A stretch of 64,000 bases of DNA, from positions 620,001 through 684,000 of the forward strand of contig NZ_JACKZY010000002.1 of assembly GCF_020833685.1 (NCBI RefSeq), read 5' to 3'. Of this stretch, positions 4,039 through 13,851 are shown in pieces (positions within the stretch are counted from its first letter, which is position 1; every line of letters begins with the position of its first letter). Source of the stretch: Nitratireductor sp. B36. Its GTDB lineage: Bacteria; Pseudomonadota; Alphaproteobacteria; Rhizobiales; Rhizobiaceae. The notes below the pieces were generated by a model. It was not told the DNA's origin, searched no databases, and was given only the letters and a program-made list of their open reading frames with translations. The position numbers and the translations under genes are program-made.

Positions 4039-5490
4039 TTATACGCCGCTCGCCGGAATGCCCGTCCGCTCCACCTTGCGCGGCGCGGTCACCTGCTTCC
4101 ATTGCGAAAGCGCCCGGTTCACCGCCATGTGCGGTTTGCGTCCCACGAATCTTCCGTGGCCCGGCTTCGGCTTCACCGCGCCATCCTCGACCACGATCTC
4201 GCCGCGGGACAGAACGGTCTTTGGAAGGCCCTTCACCTCAATACCCTCGAACACATTGTAATCGATGGCCGATTGCTGGCTTTTGGCGGAAATCGTCTTC
4301 GTGGCTTCCGGGTCCCAGATCACGATGTCCGCATCGGCGCCCTCAACGATCGCACCCTTTTGCGGATACATGTTCAGGATTTTTGCAATATTGGTGGAGG
4401 TGACGGCGACGAATTCGTTCATGGTCAGCCGCCCTGTATTGACCCCATAGGTCCACAGAACGGGCATGCGGTCCTCAAGTCCGCCGGTTCCATTGGGGAT
4501 CTTTGTGAAGTCCCCCACGCCGTAGCGCTTCTGCTCCGTCGTGAAGGCGCAATGGTCTGTCGCCACCACCTGCAACGAGCCGGCCTGCAGCCCTGCCCAC
4601 AGCGAATCCTGGTGCTGCTTGTTGCGGAAGGGCGGGCTCATCACGCGGCGTGCGGCATGGTCCCAGTCGGCATTGGCATATTCGCTTTCATCCAACACCA
4701 GGTGCTGGATCAGCGGTTCGCCGTAAACGCGCATGCCCTTCTGCCGCGCGCGGCGGATCGCCTCGTGGCTCTGCTCGCACGATGTATGCACCACATAAAG
4801 CGGTGTGCCCGCCATGTCGGCGATCATGATGGCGCGGTTGGTGGCCTCGCCCTCCACCTCGGGCGGGCGCGAATAGGCGTGCGCCTCCGGCCCATTGTTG
4901 CCTTCCTCCAGAAGCTTTGCCTGAAGCTGAGCGACCACATCGCCATTTTCGGCATGGACGAGGGGCAGGGCGCCCAGTTCCGCACAGCGCTGGAACGACG
5001 AATACATCTCGTCATCGTCCACCATCAGCGCGCCCTTGTAGGCCATGAAATGCTTGAAGGAGGTGATGCCCTTTTCCACCACCTCAGGCATCTCGTTGAA
5101 GACCTGCTCGCCCCACCAGGTGATCGCCATGTGAAAGGAATAGTCGCAGGTCGCCCGGGTCGACTTATTGTCCCACATTTGGATGGCCTCCAGCAGGGAT
5201 TGACCGGGCGAGGGCAGGCAGAAATCCACCACCATCGTCGTGCCGCCCGAGACGGCAGCGCGGGTGCCGCTTTCGAAATCGTCGCTCGAATAGGTGCCCA
5301 TGAAGGGCATTTCCAGATGGGTGTGCGGGTCGATCCCGCCCGGCATCACATAGCAGCCGGTGGCGTCGATCTCATGATCGCCATGAAGATCGTGGCCGAT
5401 CGCCACGATCTTGTCGTGCTGTACGAGAATGTCGGCCTTCCACGTCCGGTCGGCCGTGACGATGGTTCCGTTTCTGATGACCTTGGACAT
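4039..5490 (-). CDS. hydA: Dihydropyrimidinase / D-hydantoinase
   Basis: This 483-residue amidohydrolase opens the ring of dihydrouracil, dihydrothymine or 5-substituted hydantoins to give N-carbamoyl amino acids. The dinuclear metal site is complete: HTH (His56, His58), the lysine expected to be carbamylated (Lys152 in MAYKG), then HAENGD, VVHTSCE and ATDHCAF. The length is normal for the family. The next enzyme, an N-carbamoyl amidase, is immediately upstream in the same operon, and an aminotransferase that could take beta-alanine follows the same logic. The dihydropyrimidine dehydrogenase that would start uracil breakdown is not in the window, so hydantoins remain a possible natural substrate. 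Confidence 0.95.
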   Translation of the reverse strand: MSKVIRNGTIVTADRTWKADILVQHDKIVAIGHDLHGDHEIDATGCYVMPGGIDPHTHLEMPFMGTYSSDDFESGTRAAVSGGTTMVVDFCLPSPGQSLLEAIQMWDNKSTRATCDYSFHMAITWWGEQVFNEMPEVVEKGITSFKHFMAYKGALMVDDDEMYSSFQRCAELGALPLVHAENGDVVAQLQAKLLEEGNNGPEAHAYSRPPEVEGEATNRAIMIADMAGTPLYVVHTSCEQSHEAIRRARQKGMRVYGEPLIQHLVLDESEYANADWDHAARRVMSPPFRNKQHQDSLWAGLQAGSLQVVATDHCAFTTEQKRYGVGDFTKIPNGTGGLEDRMPVLWTYGVNTGRLTMNEFVAVTSTNIAKILNMYPQKGAIVEGADADIVIWDPEATKTISAKSQQSAIDYNVFEGIEVKGLPKTVLSRGEIVVEDGAVKPKPGHGRFVGRKPHMAVNRALSQWKQVTAPRKVERTGIPASGV

Positions 5491-5541
5491 GAGTTTCCCC
5501 TCTTATTGTGTTGTCCTCGGCGGATTTGGGGGATCGTCAGA

Positions 5542-6792
5542 TCATTCGACGATCTCCGCCGTTTCCACCACGGCATGGAAAAGAACGTCCGCACCCGCTT
5601 GCGCCCACTCCTTCGTGATCTCTTCCGCCTCATTGTGCGAAAGCCCGTCGACGCAGGGGCACATCACCATGGCGGTCGGCGCCACCTGATTGATCCAGCA
5701 GGCGTCGTGGCCGGCGCCCGAAACGATGTCGCGATGCGAATAGCCAAGCCGTTCGGCGGCGTCGCGGATCGCCTTCACGCAGCCTTCGTCGAAGGTGACC
5801 GGGGCGAAATGGCCGACCGGCTCGATCTCGAATTTGATGTCGAGCGCGTCGCAGATCGTCTCGATGCCCGCCTCGATCTTCGCGCGCATTTTGTTCAGCG
5901 TCTTCTCGTCAGGCGAGCGGATGTCGACGGTGAACACCGTCTTGCCCGGAATGACGTTGCGGGAATTGGGGTAGACCTCCACATGGCCGATGGCGCCCAC
6001 GGCGTTTGGCTGGTGGTCCATCGCCACTTCATGCACCAGCTCCGTCACCCGCGCCATGCCGAGCCCGGCATTGCGGCGCTTGGGCATCGGTGTCGAGCCG
6101 GTGTGGCTCTCCTTGCCGGTCAGCGTTACCTGCAGCCACCACAGGCCCTGCCCATGGGTGACGACGCCGATGTCGACGAGCTCGTCCTCAAGGATCGGTC
6201 CCTGCTCGATGTGCAATTCGAAGAAGGCCTTCATCTTGCGCTGGCCGACGGGCTCGTCGCCCTTCCAGCCGATGCGCTCCAGCTCGTCGCCGAAGCGCTT
6301 GCCTTCCGCGTCCGTGCGGTCATAGGCCCAGTCGCGCTCATGGACGCCCGCAAACACGCCCGACGCCAGCATGGCAGGCGCAAAGCGCGTGCCTTCCTCA
6401 TTGGTCCAGTTGGTCACCACGATGGGGTGCTTGGTCTTGATGCCCAGATCGTTCATCGAGCGGATGATTTCGAGCCCGCCCAGAACGCCGAGCACGCCGT
6501 CATATTTGCCGCCTGTCGGCTGGGTGTCGAGGTGGGAGCCCACATAGACGGGCAGGGCGTCTGGGTCGGTGCCTGCGCGCGTTGCGAACATGGTGCCCAT
6601 TTCGTCCACGCCCATTTCGAGCCCGGCTTCCTCGCACCATTTCTGAAAGAGTTTTCGGCCTTCGCTGTCTTCGTCGGTCAGTGTCTGGCGGTTGTTGCCG
6701 CCGGCCACACCGGGCCCGATCTTCGCCATCTCCATGAGTGAATCCCAGAGGCGGTCGGCGTTGATCTTCATGTTCTCGCCCGGTGCGGCCAT
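5542..6792 (-). CDS. N-carbamoyl-beta-alanine / N-carbamoyl-amino-acid amidohydrolase (M20 family)
   Basis: This 416-residue zinc-dependent hydrolase removes the carbamoyl group from the hydantoinase product, releasing an amino acid, CO2 and ammonia. Metal-binding and catalytic motifs of the family are visible: GSHLDTQPTGGKYDGVLGVL, NEEGTRF, ELHIEQGPILE and GAGHDACW near the C-terminus. Members hydrolyse N-carbamoyl-beta-alanine, N-carbamoyl-L-amino acids or allantoate, and sequence reading alone does not separate them. Context with dihydropyrimidinase favours N-carbamoyl-beta-alanine. A second possible start (MKINADR) lies seven codons in. Confidence 0.92.
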   Translation of the reverse strand: MAAPGENMKINADRLWDSLMEMAKIGPGVAGGNNRQTLTDEDSEGRKLFQKWCEEAGLEMGVDEMGTMFATRAGTDPDALPVYVGSHLDTQPTGGKYDGVLGVLGGLEIIRSMNDLGIKTKHPIVVTNWTNEEGTRFAPAMLASGVFAGVHERDWAYDRTDAEGKRFGDELERIGWKGDEPVGQRKMKAFFELHIEQGPILEDELVDIGVVTHGQGLWWLQVTLTGKESHTGSTPMPKRRNAGLGMARVTELVHEVAMDHQPNAVGAIGHVEVYPNSRNVIPGKTVFTVDIRSPDEKTLNKMRAKIEAGIETICDALDIKFEIEPVGHFAPVTFDEGCVKAIRDAAERLGYSHRDIVSGAGHDACWINQVAPTAMVMCPCVDGLSHNEAEEITKEWAQAGADVLFHAVVETAEIVE

Positions 6793-8674: not shown

Positions 8675-9292
8675 ATGGACAAGCCCGCCGCCCGTCCAAA
8701 GCGCACCCGCATCCAGCGCGAAAAGCGCGAACTGATCGGTGAAGCCGCGCTGGAGGTTTTTTCCCAGCACGGGTTTCGGGGCTCGACCATTGACCAGATT
8801 GCCGATGCGGCCGGCATGTCGAAGCCCAATCTCCTCTATTATTTCAAGAACAAGGAGGAGATTTTTGCGACTTTGATTCACCGTCTCATGGAGACCTGGC
8901 TCGCCCCCCTGCGGGAGATGGATGCGACAGGCGATCCGCACACCGAAATCCGCTCCTATATTCGCCGCAAGATCGAGATGGCGCGTGATTTCCCGCGCGA
9001 GAGCCGGCTGTTTGCCAATGAGATTCTGCAGGGCGCACCGCGTATCCTGCCGCTGTTGGAAGGCGAGTTGAAGGAACTGGTGGACGAGAAAGCCGCGATT
9101 ATCGCCACCTGGATGCGCGCGGGACGCCTGAAAAAGAGCGATCCCTACCACTTCATCTTCGCCATCTGGGCGACCACCCAGCACTATGCCGATTTCGACG
9201 TGCAGGTGCGTGCGGTGCTGGGCGAAAACCGCGGTGGCGAGGGCCGTTTCGAGGATGCCGCGCGGTTTTTGGAGGGGCTGTTTCTGGCCTGA
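8675..9292 (+). CDS. rutR: TetR-family regulator, RutR-like
   Basis: This 205-residue regulator has an N-terminal TetR helix-turn-helix (EAALEVFSQHGFRGSTIDQIADAAGMSKPNLLYYFKNKEEIF, about residues 20-62). The ligand domain matches RutR closely: WLAPLREMDATGD, IRSYIRRKIEMARDFPRESRLFANEILQGAP, LVDEKAAIIATWM and FAIWATTQHYADFDVQV. E. coli RutR responds to uracil and represses pyrimidine-degradation genes. It is divergent from the pyrimidine/hydantoin operon and a RutR-like palindrome lies between them, so regulation of that operon is a strong inference. About 240 bases without a recognisable gene follow it. Confidence 0.88.
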   Translation: MDKPAARPKRTRIQREKRELIGEAALEVFSQHGFRGSTIDQIADAAGMSKPNLLYYFKNKEEIFATLIHRLMETWLAPLREMDATGDPHTEIRSYIRRKIEMARDFPRESRLFANEILQGAPRILPLLEGELKELVDEKAAIIATWMRAGRLKKSDPYHFIFAIWATTQHYADFDVQVRAVLGENRGGEGRFEDAARFLEGLFLA

Positions 9293-9534: not shown

Positions 9535-10269
9535 ATGGTCAGCGAAGGCGACGAGCGAGAACTTGCCAGGGATTATGCGGCACTGCGCGCGGCCTATGCC
9601 GAAGGCGCGTTTCTGATACGGGCTTGGCATTTGCAGGTCTTGCTGGAGGCGCGGGCGAACTTCAATCCCGCTCAGCCGCGTGTTCCGCGTGGTTACCGCT
9701 ACGGTGGGCGGTGGACTGGGCCGGGCGGCGACTGGGGCGGACCTGCACGGGACGATGGCCGTGCGAAAATTGTGGCCGTCAGCGGCGATCCGGACGAGCC
9801 GAAGATCCCCCACAGAAGGCCAGCGCGGGCGCGTGAGCGCAATCGGATCGGCCGCGCTGCGGCCCGGTATCTGCGGACGCTTCCGCTTTGGCAGCAGGTT
9901 CGCTTTCTCGCGCGGGTCGGCTGGCTGGCGAACGAAGCCGGGCACACGATCCGATCCTACTCTGACGAGCCGCGCGCGCTGGAGGAACTTAAGGAACGTG
10001 CGACTGTACCGAGTCCGGGCTATGATATACACCATATAGTTGAGAGAACGCCGGCATATCGTGACGGATTTTCGCGGGAGATGATCGAGAGCCCCGACAA
10101 CAAGGTGCTGGTTCCACGGTACAAGCATTGGGAGATCACGGCATGGTACGCTAGGAACAACAAGGAGTGGGGTGGAGTTAGTCCTCGCGCGTATCTCAGG
10201 GGAAGAAACTGGGAGGAACGCGAATTGATGGGGCGATATGCGCTGAGAAAGTTTGGAGTGCTGAAATGA
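9535..10269 (+). CDS. Polymorphic-toxin-like protein with HNH-type nuclease core
   Basis: This 244-residue protein has three parts. Residues 1-42 are a short helical N-terminus without a signal peptide. Residues 43-61 hold FNPAQPRVPRGYRYGGRWTG, a motif of the PRVPxGxxxGGxWT type that I recall preceding C-terminal toxin domains in proteobacteria. Residues about 100-244 are the toxin domain with YDIHHIVE (His166, His167), Asn189 and His198. The HH...N-x8-H order fits an HNH/beta-beta-alpha-metal nuclease. Its stop overlaps the next gene by ATGA, as in toxin-immunity pairs. No secretion gene is adjacent. A nuclease activity is inferred, not shown. Confidence 0.75.
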   Translation: MVSEGDERELARDYAALRAAYAEGAFLIRAWHLQVLLEARANFNPAQPRVPRGYRYGGRWTGPGGDWGGPARDDGRAKIVAVSGDPDEPKIPHRRPARARERNRIGRAAARYLRTLPLWQQVRFLARVGWLANEAGHTIRSYSDEPRALEELKERATVPSPGYDIHHIVERTPAYRDGFSREMIESPDNKVLVPRYKHWEITAWYARNNKEWGGVSPRAYLRGRNWEERELMGRYALRKFGVLK

Positions 10270-10643
10270 AGTCCAAAGCCGCTCGTCTTGCAAACCAGTC
10301 GGACGATAGCCTCATCGCGCGTGCTGCGGAAATTGGTGTGGCACAGGACCATGCGCTGCTGGGAAATGAAATTTCCCGCTGCAACAGACTTTTCGATGAG
10401 TTGACGGCAATCGAAGAAGAACTGCGCACGCGGCCAGGAGATCGGCGGCGGCTGTTCATCAAACTCTATGAACATCGAAACATGCAGGTGCGTCTGAATT
10501 CCGCCAAGGCGACCCTTGCCGTTGCGCCGCAGGAGGCGCGGGCGCTGCTGGAGTGGATCGCGGAATCGAAGCATAATCCACAAGCTGGCGATGCCGGGAT
10601 GTGCCTCTGGGCGCTGGATGAAGGGATCTTCGTTCCAGAATAA
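10266..10643 (+). CDS. DUF2019-like probable immunity protein (type A)
   Basis: This 125-residue, mostly helical protein overlaps the toxin stop by four bases. It has NQSDDSLIARAAEIGVAQDHALL, then RPGDRRRLFIKLYEHRNMQVRLNSAKATLAVAPQEARALLEWIA, which looks like paired HEAT-like helices and resembles the DUF2019 family as I recall it. Position and coupling make it the likely cognate immunity protein of the toxin. A nearly identical copy is at 12769-13146; the duplicated block (10211-10643 and 12714-13146) is the same length with no indels. Confidence 0.72.
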   Translation: MKSKAARLANQSDDSLIARAAEIGVAQDHALLGNEISRCNRLFDELTAIEEELRTRPGDRRRLFIKLYEHRNMQVRLNSAKATLAVAPQEARALLEWIAESKHNPQAGDAGMCLWALDEGIFVPE

Positions 10644-10681
10644 GGCATCCCGGATTGGCAGCCTTGGCAGAAGGGAGTAGC

Positions 10682-11050
10682 GTGGCGAAGAAGGGAGAAA
10701 ATGTTTCCGTCGACAAGATGCTGCAACGCTTCATCGAACTGAGCCTGACGCAGCATGGAGCGCTGCTATATCTTGAGACCGGGCCTTACAATCGCGCTTA
10801 TATGAAAATCAAAAAGCTGGTTGAAGAAATGGAAGCGCGCCCCGGTGATCAGCGCCGTATTTTGACCGATCTGTTCGACCATCCAAACCCTCAAGTGCGA
10901 TTGAACGCAGCCAAATATGCTCATCCTCTTTTCCCCGAGGAGTCCATTCAAGTCGTTCAATCCATCATTGATGCCAAAAAATACCCGCAGGAAGCGCATG
11001 CCAGGAGCGCGCTTGATTATCTGATGTTCGGACCATTGCCCCGAGAATGA
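10682..11050 (+). CDS. DUF2019-like probable immunity protein (type B)
   Basis: This 122-residue protein is read from GTG 10682, which has a GGGAG ribosome site five bases upstream (10673-10677). The frame also allows a TTG at 10655. It shows the shared pattern of the island: MLQRFIELSLTQH, YNRAYMKIKKLVEE, RPGDQRR and DHPNPQVRLNAAKYAHPL. The first half is almost identical at DNA level to the gene at 12330, while the second half diverges, so the gene looks mosaic. No toxin tail is recognisable directly upstream, so it may be an orphan immunity gene. Confidence 0.68.
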   Translation: MAKKGENVSVDKMLQRFIELSLTQHGALLYLETGPYNRAYMKIKKLVEEMEARPGDQRRILTDLFDHPNPQVRLNAAKYAHPLFPEESIQVVQSIIDAKKYPQEAHARSALDYLMFGPLPRE

Positions 11051-11139
11051 TGGTTGTCCAGCGTTGTTGACGTAGGACGTCGCCCCTGAACCCACGGCAA
11101 TCCATCCGCGAGAGCGCGGTGGATATTGAGATTGCATAA

Positions 11140-11754
11140 GCAAGTTTCAACCCGCACCAACCCCGTGTTCCGCGTGGTTACCGCTACGGTGGGCGGTGGA
11201 CTGGGCCGGGGGGCGACTGGGGCGGACCTGCACGGGACGATGGCCGTACAAAAATTCTGGCCGTCAGCGGCGACCCGGAAGAGCCGAAGATCCCCCACAG
11301 AAGACCTGCGCGGGCGCGTGAGCGCAATCGGATCGGCCGTGCTGCGGCCCGGTATCTGCGGACGCTTCCGCTTTGGCAGCAGGTTCGCTTTCTCACGCGG
11401 GTCGGCTGGCTGGCGAACGAAGCCGGGCACACGATCCGTTTCTACTCGGACAAGCCGCGCTCATTGGAGGAACTTAAGGAACGTGCGACTTTTCCGAGAT
11501 CGGGCTATGATATACACCATATAGTTGAGAAAACGCCGGCATATCGTGACGGATTTTCGCAGGAGATGATCGAGAGCCCCGACAACAAGGTGCTGGTTCC
11601 ACGGTACAAGCATTGGGAGATCACGGCCTGGTAGGCCCAAAGAAATGGCAAGTTCGGTGGCCTCTCTCCTCGAGAGGCTCTCCATAATGCCACTTGGCGC
11701 AAGCGGGTAGAGATAGGACTGTCGGCATTAAGGGAACATGGAGTTTTGAGATGA
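11140..11754 (+). pseudogene. Orphan second copy of the toxin cassette, one in-frame stop
   Basis: From about 11149 the DNA nearly repeats the toxin gene from the PRVPRGYRYGGRW motif to KHWEITAW, including the HH, N and H residues. There is no start: an in-frame TAA sits at 11137-11139 and the N-terminal 42 residues are missing. Where the intact toxin has a Tyr codon after AW, this copy has TAG (11632-11634). Beyond it the same frame continues into a different tail (AQRNGKFGGLSPREAL ... SALREHGVLR) and stops at 11752-11754, overlapping the next immunity ATG by four bases. It reads as a silent or decayed recombination cassette. Confidence 0.8.
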
Positions 11755-12122
11755 CGGTGAAGAAGAGAAGTGAGCTCTCCGTCGATCAGATTATCCGGCG
11801 GTTCATCGACCTCAGCCTGACGCAGCATGAGGCTGTGCTATATCTCGAAACACGGCCCTACAATCGCGCTTATCTTAAGATTAAAGGTTTGGCGGAAGAA
11901 CTGGAAGCACGCCCCGGTGATCAGCGGCATGTTCTGGTCGATCTTTTCGACCATCCAAACCCGCAAGTGCGTTTGAACGCAGCCACATATGCCCATCCCC
12001 TTTTCCCAGGTCCGGCCATTAAGGTCGTTCAATCCATCATCGATGCCAAAAGACATCCACAGGAAGCGGATGCCAGGACCGTGCTTGACTACTTGATCAA
12101 TGGACCTCTTGAACCGGAATGA
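11751..12122 (+). CDS. DUF2019-like probable immunity protein (type B)
   Basis: This 123-residue protein starts at the ATG that overlaps the stop of the orphan toxin cassette, the same ATGA coupling as in the intact pair. It shows VDQIIRRFIDLSLTQHEA, YNRAYLKIKGLAEELEARPGDQR and DHPNPQVRLNAATYAHPL. It is similar to the proteins at 10682 and 12330 but differs from the type A proteins at 10266 and 12769. The toxin tail in front of it is also different from the tail in front of type A, which supports tail-specific immunity. Confidence 0.7.
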   Translation: MTVKKRSELSVDQIIRRFIDLSLTQHEAVLYLETRPYNRAYLKIKGLAEELEARPGDQRHVLVDLFDHPNPQVRLNAATYAHPLFPGPAIKVVQSIIDAKRHPQEADARTVLDYLINGPLEPE

Positions 12123-12267
12123 TGGAGTTGTTGCGAAGATGACATCTCGACATCATACCGAAACCCAGGCCCGTTCATTGAACATGCCGGATGGGTTGGA
12201 CGCTTGGATAGGTCTGCTGCCAAATCCAATGATTTGGGAGGATTCTTGTTTCAGCAACTTCTTCGAG

Positions 12268-12333
12268 GGCTTCAGGGCGCGGGCGGGTAGAGGCCGGTCT
12301 TTTGCGTTGCAGCGGCTCGGCACTTTCAAATGA
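12268..12333 (+). other. Possible toxin C-terminal tail remnant
   Basis: The frame just before the next immunity gene ends RSFALQRLGTFK and then TGA, overlapping the following ATG. This resembles the tails RYALRKFGVLK and GLSALREHGVLR of the other cassettes (AL, then G, then a basic last residue). Similarity is confined to about 12 residues, so the call is tentative. Confidence 0.4.
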
Positions 12334-12704
12334 TGACGAGACGCAAGAATAACGCTCCCGTCGATGAGATGCTGCAACGCTTCATAGAACTGAGCCTGAC
12401 GCAGCATGAGGCGCTGCTATATCTTGAGACCGGGCCTTACAATCGCGCTTATATGAAAATCAAAAAGCTGGTTGAAGAACTGGAAGCGCGCCCCGGTGAT
12501 CAGCGTCATGCGCTGATCGAACTGTTTGATCACGACAATCCTCAAGTGCGGCTGAACGCCGCCAAACATGCCCACCCTCTTTCTCCGGATAAGGCCATTC
12601 AGATTTTTCAATCCATCATTGATGCCAAGGCGCTTCCGCAGGACGTCTATGCCAAGGATGTACTTTCATTTCTGATGCATGGACCACGGTTTGGGCGAAG
12701 GTAG
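12330..12704 (+). CDS. DUF2019-like probable immunity protein (type B)
   Basis: This 124-residue protein begins MTRRKNNAPVDEMLQRFIELSLTQHEA and continues YNRAYMKIKKLVEELEARPGDQRHALIELFDHDNPQVRLNAAKHAHPL. Its first half is nearly identical in DNA to the gene at 10682 and the second half differs, pointing to gene conversion or recombination inside the gene. The start overlaps the stop of a short toxin-tail-like frame. A remnant of the type A toxin tail follows about ten bases after its stop. Confidence 0.7.
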   Translation: MMTRRKNNAPVDEMLQRFIELSLTQHEALLYLETGPYNRAYMKIKKLVEELEARPGDQRHALIELFDHDNPQVRLNAAKHAHPLSPDKAIQIFQSIIDAKALPQDVYAKDVLSFLMHGPRFGRR

Positions 12705-12713
12705 AAAGCCGCC

Positions 12714-12772
12714 GGGAGGAACGCGAATTGATGGAGCGATATGCACTGAGAAAGTCTGGAGTGCTGAAATGA
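12714..12772 (+). pseudogene. Remnant of toxin C-terminal tail
   Basis: This stretch copies the last codons of the intact toxin (10211-10269): it reads REERELMERYALRKSGVLK and stops at 12770-12772, overlapping the next ATG by ATGA. The rest of the toxin is absent. It shows that this immunity gene was moved or duplicated together with the end of its toxin. Confidence 0.8.
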
Positions 12773-13146
12773 AGTCCAAAGCCGCTCGTTTTGCAAACCA
12801 GTCGGACGACAGTCTCATCGCGCGTGCCGCTGAAATTGGCATGGAACAGGATCATGCGCTGCTGGGAAATGAAATTTCCCGTTTTAACAAGCTCTTCGAC
12901 GAACTGATGTTGATTAAGAATGAACTGCGTACGCGGCCAGGAGATCGGCGGCGGCTGTTCATCAAACTCTATGAACATCGAAACATGCAGGTGCGTCTGA
13001 ATTCCGCCAAGGCGACCCTCGCCGTTGCGCCGCAGGAGGCGCGGGCGCTGCTGGAGTGGATCGCGGAATCGAAGCATAATCCACAAGCTGGCGATGCCGG
13101 GATGTGTCTCTGGGCGCTGGATGAAGGGATCTTCGTTCCGGAATGA
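12769..13146 (+). CDS. DUF2019-like probable immunity protein (type A, second copy)
   Basis: This 125-residue protein differs from the one at 10266 at only a few positions, mostly in residues 25-58; the C-terminal half is practically identical. The two copies lie in blocks of equal length, so this is a recent duplication. It is preceded only by a toxin-tail remnant and so is an orphan immunity gene. It could give extra protection against the intact toxin or against a rival strain's variant. Confidence 0.72.
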   Translation: MKSKAARFANQSDDSLIARAAEIGMEQDHALLGNEISRFNKLFDELMLIKNELRTRPGDRRRLFIKLYEHRNMQVRLNSAKATLAVAPQEARALLEWIAESKHNPQAGDAGMCLWALDEGIFVPE

Positions 13147-13209: not shown

Positions 13210-13851
13210 TCATCGCGCGCGATAGAGCGCATGCTGTGCGTCGAATGCGCGCTGATAGGCGGGACGGCTTGTGCCGCGCTCCATATAGGCGCAGAGGCTG
13301 GCGTGTTTCTCAATGAGTGAACTGCCCTCCAGCCGGCGCAGCACGGTCACCATCATGATGTCGGCGAGGCTGAAATGGCCGCAAAGCCAGTCCCGTTCTG
13401 CAAGCGCATCCGAAAGATCCCTGAGCCGGAGATCGACCTTTTCGTCGAGGAGGGCAAGGAGTTCACCGAACCAGGGGCGGTCCCGTACTGTATAGCCTGC
13501 AGCCTCCCGCTCGACGATGGGTGGCTCTATGGTGTTCAGGGCGGCAAAGAACCAGGAGAGTGCCATCGCGCGCCCCTGATCATCTTCCGGCAGAAGACCG
13601 GTATGTTCGCTGGCAATGTGAAGAAGGATGGCGCCCGTTTCAAACAGGCTCACCGTGCCCGTTTCAAGGGTCGGGATCTGGCCGAACGGCTGGAGCCTGC
13701 GATGACGGGGCTCCTTCATTTGCTGGAATGAAACGGTGCGGATATCATAATCCTGCCCGACCTCCTCAAGCGCCCAGCGCACACGCATGTCGCGGGCATG
13801 ACCCTGCCCACGGTCGGGTGATTTCTCAAAAACAGTCAGAATCGGACGCAT
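13210..13851 (-). CDS. Glutathione S-transferase family protein
   Basis: This 213-residue protein has an N-terminal thioredoxin-like GST domain (about 1-80) with the cis-proline and glutathione-binding region QIPTLETGTVSLFETGAILLHI, then a helical C-terminal domain with HFSLADIMMVTVLRRLEG. It would conjugate or exchange glutathione on small molecules in the cytoplasm. The substrate is unknown. It is convergent with the immunity gene array and separate from it. Confidence 0.88.
   Translation of the reverse strand: MRPILTVFEKSPDRGQGHARDMRVRWALEEVGQDYDIRTVSFQQMKEPRHRRLQPFGQIPTLETGTVSLFETGAILLHIASEHTGLLPEDDQGRAMALSWFFAALNTIEPPIVEREAAGYTVRDRPWFGELLALLDEKVDLRLRDLSDALAERDWLCGHFSLADIMMVTVLRRLEGSSLIEKHASLCAYMERGTSRPAYQRAFDAQHALYRAR

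Follow-up and report, generated by a model that had tools for sequence, protein, structure and literature searches.

The window analysed here is a 64-kb stretch of the 4.19-Mb genome of Nitratireductor sp. B36 (positions 620001-684000 of contig C2; G000:C2:620001-684000). It holds an island in which the gene of a candidate toxin, here called TOX, is followed by five small genes of the DUF2019 family, with partial copies of the toxin gene between them. We describe the island, the TOX family (its loci numbered with L, genomes with G) and the relation of both to gene transfer agents (GTAs). The features of the island are:

9535..10269, plus strand: TOX, full-length candidate toxin, open reading frame (ORF) of 244 residues
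9661..9717, plus strand: linker F-N-P-x-Q-P-R-V-P-x-G....GG-x-W-T, common to portal-fused and other candidate toxins
10266..10643, plus strand: DUF2019 gene of subtype A, overlapping TOX by ATGA; 116 bits
10682..11050, plus strand: DUF2019 gene, subtype B; 90.3 bits; GTG start uncertain, the ORF list giving TTG at 10655
11146..11754, plus strand: orphan toxin cassette, linker and toxin domain with a B-type tail, without the N-terminal segment; in-frame TAG
11751..12122, plus strand: DUF2019 gene of subtype B, overlapping the frame of the orphan cassette by ATGA; 93.4 bits
12330..12704, plus strand: DUF2019 gene, subtype B; 95.1 bits; no recognisable toxin tail ahead
12713..12772, plus strand: remnant toxin tail of A type (the type of full-length TOX), by sequence similarity
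12769..13146, plus strand: DUF2019 gene of subtype A, overlapping the remnant tail by ATGA; 122.1 bits

An earlier description of the island, the sequence-only reading, had described a 244-residue toxin-like protein followed by small immunity-like genes; the ORF at 9535-10269 and the small ORFs at 10266, 10682, 11751, 12330 and 12769 are all present. It had also recognised two kinds of immunity-like gene in five copies; the five copies stand, and the two kinds turned out to be two subtypes of one family. In the Pfam search that it had suggested, all five small proteins matched DUF2019 (PF09450) at 90-122 bits (cut-off 23.3). For TOX, Pfam, NCBIfam and PADLOC gave no match at E≤1, nor did PHROGs at E≤0.01. 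Subtype A comprises the genes at 10266 and 12769 (93% identical) and subtype B those at 10682, 11751 and 12330, with 34-35% identity between subtypes. These five are all the DUF2019 matches in the host genome, and a search of plasmids for DUF2019 found none. The solved DUF2019 structure, PDB 2i9c (RPA1889), matches at E 4e-45; the one paper found on it gives no function. The structure is usable as a model for the five window proteins.

The partial toxin copies reported between the immunity-like genes were recovered by alignment. Positions 11146-11636 of the orphan cassette are 93.5% identical to 9661-10151 of TOX. This homology runs from codon 43 (FNPxQPR, in the linker) to just past HWEITAW; beyond it the tail diverges and closes by ATGA at 11751. 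A short tail follows at 12713-12769, and the ATGA overlaps described for 10266, 11751 and 12769 are all present. A further, tentative toxin end before 12330 had to be dropped: compared with the two toxin tails, this stretch shows no detectable similarity, the best local match being 17 bp long. Tail and partner correspond: the A-type tail (TOX; remnant at 12713) precedes subtype A and the B-type tail precedes subtype B (11751), a pairing that is repeated in L004 and L174. The island repeats form 300-nt families of 79-94% identity, more than expected by chance, and G+C content is 52-53% across 11.5-13.0 kb versus 57-64% in flank windows. The host genome has no TOX match besides the gene, the orphan cassette and the tail. 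Rfam and tRNA scans of 8.0-14.5 kb gave no match, and a scan for promoters and terminators returned signals no more than in shuffled sequences. The cassette boundary at the linker and the correspondence of tail and subtype lend good support to the island being a polymorphic toxin-immunity array.

Two genes, both named by eye, flank the island:

8675..9292, plus strand: left flank, TetR-like regulator; adjoins the island across the genus
13210..13851, minus strand: right flank, glutathione S-transferase-like gene; directly after the TetR-like gene in the island-free locus L168

By profile search, TOX is present in 7 of 10 genomes of the genus, and in the genus loci examined it lies at most ~4 kb from the same TetR-like gene, in opposite orientation in G400 and G403. 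The masked contig L005 (probably of G402) contains the first 154 residues of TOX and was excluded from counts because the TOX frame is masked. TOX is absent from G398, of which a short stretch was examined, and from G405 (L168; 90% complete), in which ~65 bp separate the TetR-like and glutathione S-transferase-like genes. Because the neighbourhood of TOX and TetR is kept in the genus loci while L168 joins TetR to the glutathione S-transferase-like gene, the island is, to judge from these genomes, a variable block at one site. This variability, together with the recurrence of the tail and subtype pairing, is the outcome of the sister-strain comparison that the sequence-only reading had proposed. 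Between the window and N. aquibiodomus (L004), the ratio of nonsynonymous to synonymous change (dN/dS) was 0.15 for TOX, 0.14 and 0.23 for two subtype A genes, and 0.43 and 0.94 (few changes) for two of subtype B; the orphan cassette, compared as far as its stop, gave 0.37. In L004 this cassette is an open frame of 204 residues that lacks the start segment; the window copy has the in-frame TAG.

TOX consists of an N-terminal segment (~codons 1-42), the linker (codons 43-61) and a C-terminal candidate toxin domain (~143-244). The latter carries H166 H167 .. N189 .. H198, the His/Asn/His pattern of HNH/ENDO VII nucleases; across 13 diverse rows H166, H167, V169, N189, H198, R218 and G233 (window numbering) are invariant. 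A plasmid search provided two distant relatives. On a Priestia plasmid, the Pfam pre-toxin domain PT-TG precedes the TOX domain (40.6 bits, cut-off 23.5), and the gene behind it matches HEAT_2 (20.3 bits) and DUF2019 (18.4 bits), both below cut-off. On an Azospira plasmid, a TOX-like ORF is followed by two HEAT-like genes (below cut-offs). INPHARED phages gave no match, and a broad toxin profile found the host genome and one weak match among 299 genomes of the phylum. The toxin nature of TOX is supported by the pre-toxin domain in Priestia and by the known toxin domains found on the same linker (below), and we regard TOX as a probable DNA- or RNA-cutting toxin. Note that 6 of 22 toxin domains weakly matched the C-terminal toxin-binding domain of Xre/MbcA/ParS (best 2.2e-5). 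The window domain (9961-10266) had no such match, and we rejected the matches as evidence for an antitoxin.

TOX and DUF2019 occur together. Of 397 genomes surveyed in the order, 12 carry TOX, and all 12 are among the 13 that have DUF2019 (hypergeometric probability 5e-22, relatedness ignored); in the thirteenth, the DUF2019 gene starts at base 269 of its contig. A DUF2019 gene lies no more than 700 nt behind TOX in 60 of the 63 loci with a TOX ORF (30/31 from genomes, 30/32 from IMG/VR). The exceptions are L063 and two loci, L208 and L211, where the contig stops at TOX. Note that L053, L058 and L064 were removed as duplicates of L012, L022 and L008 before loci were counted, that merging identical toxin ends reduced the 63 loci to 59 distinct ones, and that several locus sets were found by patterns and are hence biased. 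In L010 (10743-10982), the DUF2019 frame behind a GTA-embedded toxin is open for 80 residues only and is possibly a decayed immunity gene. We propose, from these sequence relationships, that DUF2019 is the immunity family of TOX. A family with a solved structure and no role assigned in the one paper found would gain a testable function, that of an immunity protein.

The linker of TOX (NPxQPRVPAG..GGQWT) is common to proteins with other classes of C-terminal toxin. A 33-position linker profile matched in 69/397 genomes at E≤0.01, weak matches counted. We picked 40 linker loci from the stronger non-TOX rows of this search, and 13 have at least one GTA gene match (L130: protease only). Among 50 proteins (49 linker ORFs and TOX), Pfam identified RNAse_A_bac in seven, Phage_portal in three, MafB19-deam in two, and Deam_C and dCMP deaminase in one each, with the MafB19 and dCMP matches below cut-off. 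Most C-termini of the linker proteins had no Pfam name, NCBIfam added little, and none of the 50 matched a MuF model at E≤0.01. All 77 aligned stretches contain the four fixed residues of PRxPxG, largely by construction, as the motif was used for picking. The same motif in capsids, which might have hinted at the protease, was found in 0/91.

In some clusters the linker also joins toxin domains to the portal protein. L150 encodes portal, linker and RNAse_A_bac in a single 655-residue ORF, and the linker is present on 5 of 92 strong portal ORFs (L026, L150, L151, L152 and L185; the 92 include a few genomes twice). In a directed IMG/VR scan, 17 of 48 new loci had portal-linker ORFs, one of the 17 (L315) being the same contig as L185. 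Ten of these ORFs, chosen by hand, all matched Phage_portal, two of them also RNAse_A_bac and two CdiA_C, all above cut-off; the remaining six C-termini had no toxin-family match at E≤0.1. Portal-linker-RNAse_A_bac fusions (L150, L276, L316) and portal-linker-CdiA_C fusions (L288, L291) are above Pfam cut-offs, and in L185 portal, linker and TOX domain follow one another in a single frame that a stop codon interrupts once. The portal of Hyphomicrobium zavarzinii (L026), which bears the linker and an unnamed C-terminus, is followed by orphan cassettes; these have DNA in common with the 3' end of the portal gene and with the linker (67-82% identity) and include a TOX split across two frames ahead of DUF2019. 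To judge by these matches, the carriers of the TOX family include GTA portals.

The fusions came with further observations. An unnamed C-terminal domain of ~90 residues behind the linker recurs on GTA-type portal ORFs (L152:8967-10277; L279:2887-4596 and 5210-5704; L283:2392-3333). On the reverse strand of L151, the linker closes a portal; behind it come a nucleotidyltransferase-like ORF (named by eye) and then a pair of small ORFs that resemble each other. A second N-terminal type before the linker (by eye, e.g. RILTAVPQ..RLEI.KAIR) is found in L187, L192, L193, L195, L196, L201, L203, L204 and L207, which are IMG/VR contigs with no GTA gene match in the stretch.

An overlapping toxin and partner are also the layout of a toxin-antitoxin operon, and the pair could be an intracellular toxin-antitoxin or phage-defence module that stabilises the GTA cluster and is not delivered. 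The PADLOC result, nothing for TOX and a single weak match for one DUF2019 protein (E 0.032), is still compatible with defence. Against such a module stand the linker shared with unrelated toxin classes and with the portal, the orphan cassettes bounded by that linker, the extra immunity genes and the pre-toxin domain of a relative, all of them marks of exported polymorphic toxins. We consider the module quite improbable. The sequence-only reading had seen in the island a polymorphic toxin locus with silent ends and gathered immunity genes. This interpretation is well supported by the pairing, the linker boundary, the match of tail and subtype, the pre-toxin domain and the toxin domains on the linker.

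We next consider location. With the host genome's own GTA proteins as queries, a locus was scored as a GTA locus when matches below 1e-15 were obtained for two or more of the four head proteins terminase, portal, protease and capsid; L020, a contig beginning inside TOX, was admitted by hand on its capsid. By this measure 29 of the 59 distinct TOX loci lie within RcGTA-type head genes, and all 29 are co-oriented with them (genomes, 15/31 loci, 15/15 co-oriented; IMG/VR, 14/28 loci, 14/14 co-oriented). TOX relatives are flanked by terminase, portal, prohead protease and capsid genes. The commonest slot is between protease and capsid (9 genome and 7 IMG/VR loci), others being portal-protease, after capsid, and terminase-portal. 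In the survey of the order, 6 of the 12 TOX genomes have TOX among GTA genes (binomial probability 1.4e-11, the target being taken as 20 kb of 4 Mb). NCBIfam searches of four TOX clusters detected GTA-type tail genes, TIGR02217 in L011, L015, L019 and L026 and TIGR02218 in L011. Since about half of the TOX relatives sit among GTA genes, GTA particles may carry toxins. Some of the clusters, IMG/VR contigs above all, could be related prophages. Taken together, the evidence favours phage-like GTA particles over phage defence.

Several observations weigh against a GTA-associated toxin family with DUF2019 as its immunity. Within the sequence retrieved, the other 30 of the 59 distinct TOX loci fall short of the GTA criterion, although some of them are short contigs. 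In the host genome, TOX and linker matches are confined to C2. Its RcGTA cluster lies on contig C1 (portal 771579-772703; NCBIfam: prohead protease, distal tail, hub and megatron, NF048004, 1663 bits) and has no TOX. Nine host GTA proteins had no match among the ORFs of the window, placing the window TOX outside GTA genes. Among 60 GTA clusters, taken as capsid matches in rank order with several short contigs skipped and therefore not random, two hold a linker toxin and none has a portal fusion; some of these stretches end at contig ends (e.g. L215 and L265). No TOX was seen in the available stretch of four of 27 IMG/VR DUF2019 loci (L343, L345, L346 and L347), as spare immunity genes or, for L347, a contig end would lead one to expect. 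For the correspondence of tail type and subtype, the Mantel correlation (r 0.40, 0/5000 permutations) leaves shared descent uncontrolled, and the subtype B pair with a dN/dS of 0.94 rests on four changes. Regarding the toxin domain, the HNH-like character named by the sequence-only reading holds for the invariant H-H..N..H residues and rests on no fold: the AHH match is weak (2/22 members, best E 0.1), and a PDB sequence search with two toxin profiles gave no credible match. Matches of these profiles to protein A, PBP4 and a polarity-suppression protein were taken as chance.

The 30 loci outside the criterion, which include the window and the genus, would be accommodated if the toxins were delivered independently of GTAs, by another exporter or by release on lysis, with prophage-like regions serving as cargo hot spots. 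The different carrier of the Priestia relative is in line with this. The sequence-only reading had seen no secretion system next to the island; in the present analysis secretion genes were looked for by eye among the ORFs of 7-16 kb, without a dedicated search. GTA-independent delivery accounts poorly for the co-orientation of all 29 GTA cases and their placement among head genes, for the same linker on portal C-termini, and for the portal 3' DNA shared by the orphan cassettes of L026. We regard it as unlikely. In another reading TOX is one of the GTA head genes, an HNH nuclease that serves packaging and is regulated by DUF2019. HNH proteins are known to adjoin terminase genes in phages, and TOX combines an HNH-like pattern with a position near terminase, portal and protease genes. 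Against this, the same linker bears RNase-A-like and CdiA_C domains, copies outside GTAs have up to five DUF2019 genes, and 58 of the 60 ranked GTA clusters are without such a gene, making a packaging role highly improbable. We conclude that TOX probably belongs to a GTA-associated family of polymorphic toxins with DUF2019 as the immunity protein, and that the island would be a toxin-immunity array of this family. With a linker toxin in two of the 60 ranked clusters, the trait is an accessory one for GTA clusters.

A mechanism can be outlined on this basis. TOX would be a modular antibacterial toxin with a short N-terminal segment, a conserved linker and an HNH-type nuclease-like C-terminal domain. 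DUF2019 would provide HEAT-like immunity proteins, often started from the ATGA overlap, whose binding would block the toxin domain. New toxin ends would be imported together with their immunity genes by recombination at the linker, older pairs remaining as silent tails and spare immunity genes. We further propose that toxins are built or loaded into GTA heads and enter recipients with the DNA, because in many relatives the pairs lie among head genes and in some clusters the linker joins toxin domains to the portal C-terminus; recipients with a matching DUF2019 would survive. The window TOX may be loaded in trans into the host's GTA particles, or the island may be mainly an immunity store against the armed GTAs of relatives. 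Here we infer toxicity, nuclease activity, DUF2019 binding, loading and delivery from sequence, and observe array anatomy, the pairing of TOX with DUF2019, the sharing of the linker, the location among GTA genes and portal-toxin fusions directly. It is quite possible, if tentative, that some GTAs are armed in this way, DUF2019-neutralised HNH-like toxins and CDI-type toxins (after contact-dependent inhibition, CDI) riding in heads via portal and linker and being delivered with DNA. If so, armed GTA transfer would reward immune kin and kill or stall non-immune recipients, a direct benefit that would keep costly GTAs in genomes. The portal-fused toxin domains make kin-selective killing or discrimination directly testable.

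The family shares its organisation with known polymorphic toxins: exchangeable C-termini on a common part, an immunity gene behind, orphan cassettes and spare immunity genes. CDI systems (CdiA-CT/CdiI) and Rhs systems likewise have cassettes cut at a constant junction, silent tails and hoarded immunity genes, and the domains CdiA_C and RNAse_A_bac are found on the TOX linker. TOX differs from these systems in matching no CdiA or Rhs model, in its size of 244 residues and in the GTA portal carrier of some linker relatives. RcGTA has the terminase, portal, protease, capsid and Rcc01695-type tail and hub genes that surround TOX in relatives, and its described role is DNA transfer. In the mostly open-access literature searched, as far as the text available extends (including PMC13236601, PMC9632790, PMC11841831 and PMC3610622), there is no report of toxins inside GTA particles, and the word 'toxin' is absent from the searched text of PMC10883770. 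In the part of PMC3610622 consulted, toxin and secretion genes share a chromosomal region with the Bartonella GTA, as genes that are transferred and not as particle proteins. The Bxa prophage toxin of Bacteroides, according to its abstract (PMC11699363), belongs to a prophage-coded family in which one shared N-terminus is combined with varied toxins, and it has two immunity proteins; it differs in being an ADP-ribosyltransferase from another lineage, with no GTA link in the abstract.

The closest precedent, on the excerpts consulted, is the MuF family of polymorphic toxins, encoded by temperate phages (Zhang et al. 2012, PMC3482391; Jamet et al. 2017, PMC5576092). The text examined contains no 'gene transfer' in the former and no 'gene transfer agent' in the latter. 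As described there, MuF toxins place diverse C-terminal toxin domains in phage head and portal neighbourhoods with a small immunity ORF behind, a setting comparable to that of 29 of the 59 distinct TOX loci, though not of the window copy, and their loading into the head is predicted, as we propose for TOX. Membership in the MuF family was rejected, since TOX and the 50 linker proteins have no MuF domain (PF04233/PF06152; no Pfam match in TOX at E≤1). Unlike in MuF toxins, the carrier is a short linker, in some clusters apparently the portal protein itself, and the setting is GTA clusters. The TOX family would form a link between polymorphic toxins and gene transfer agents.

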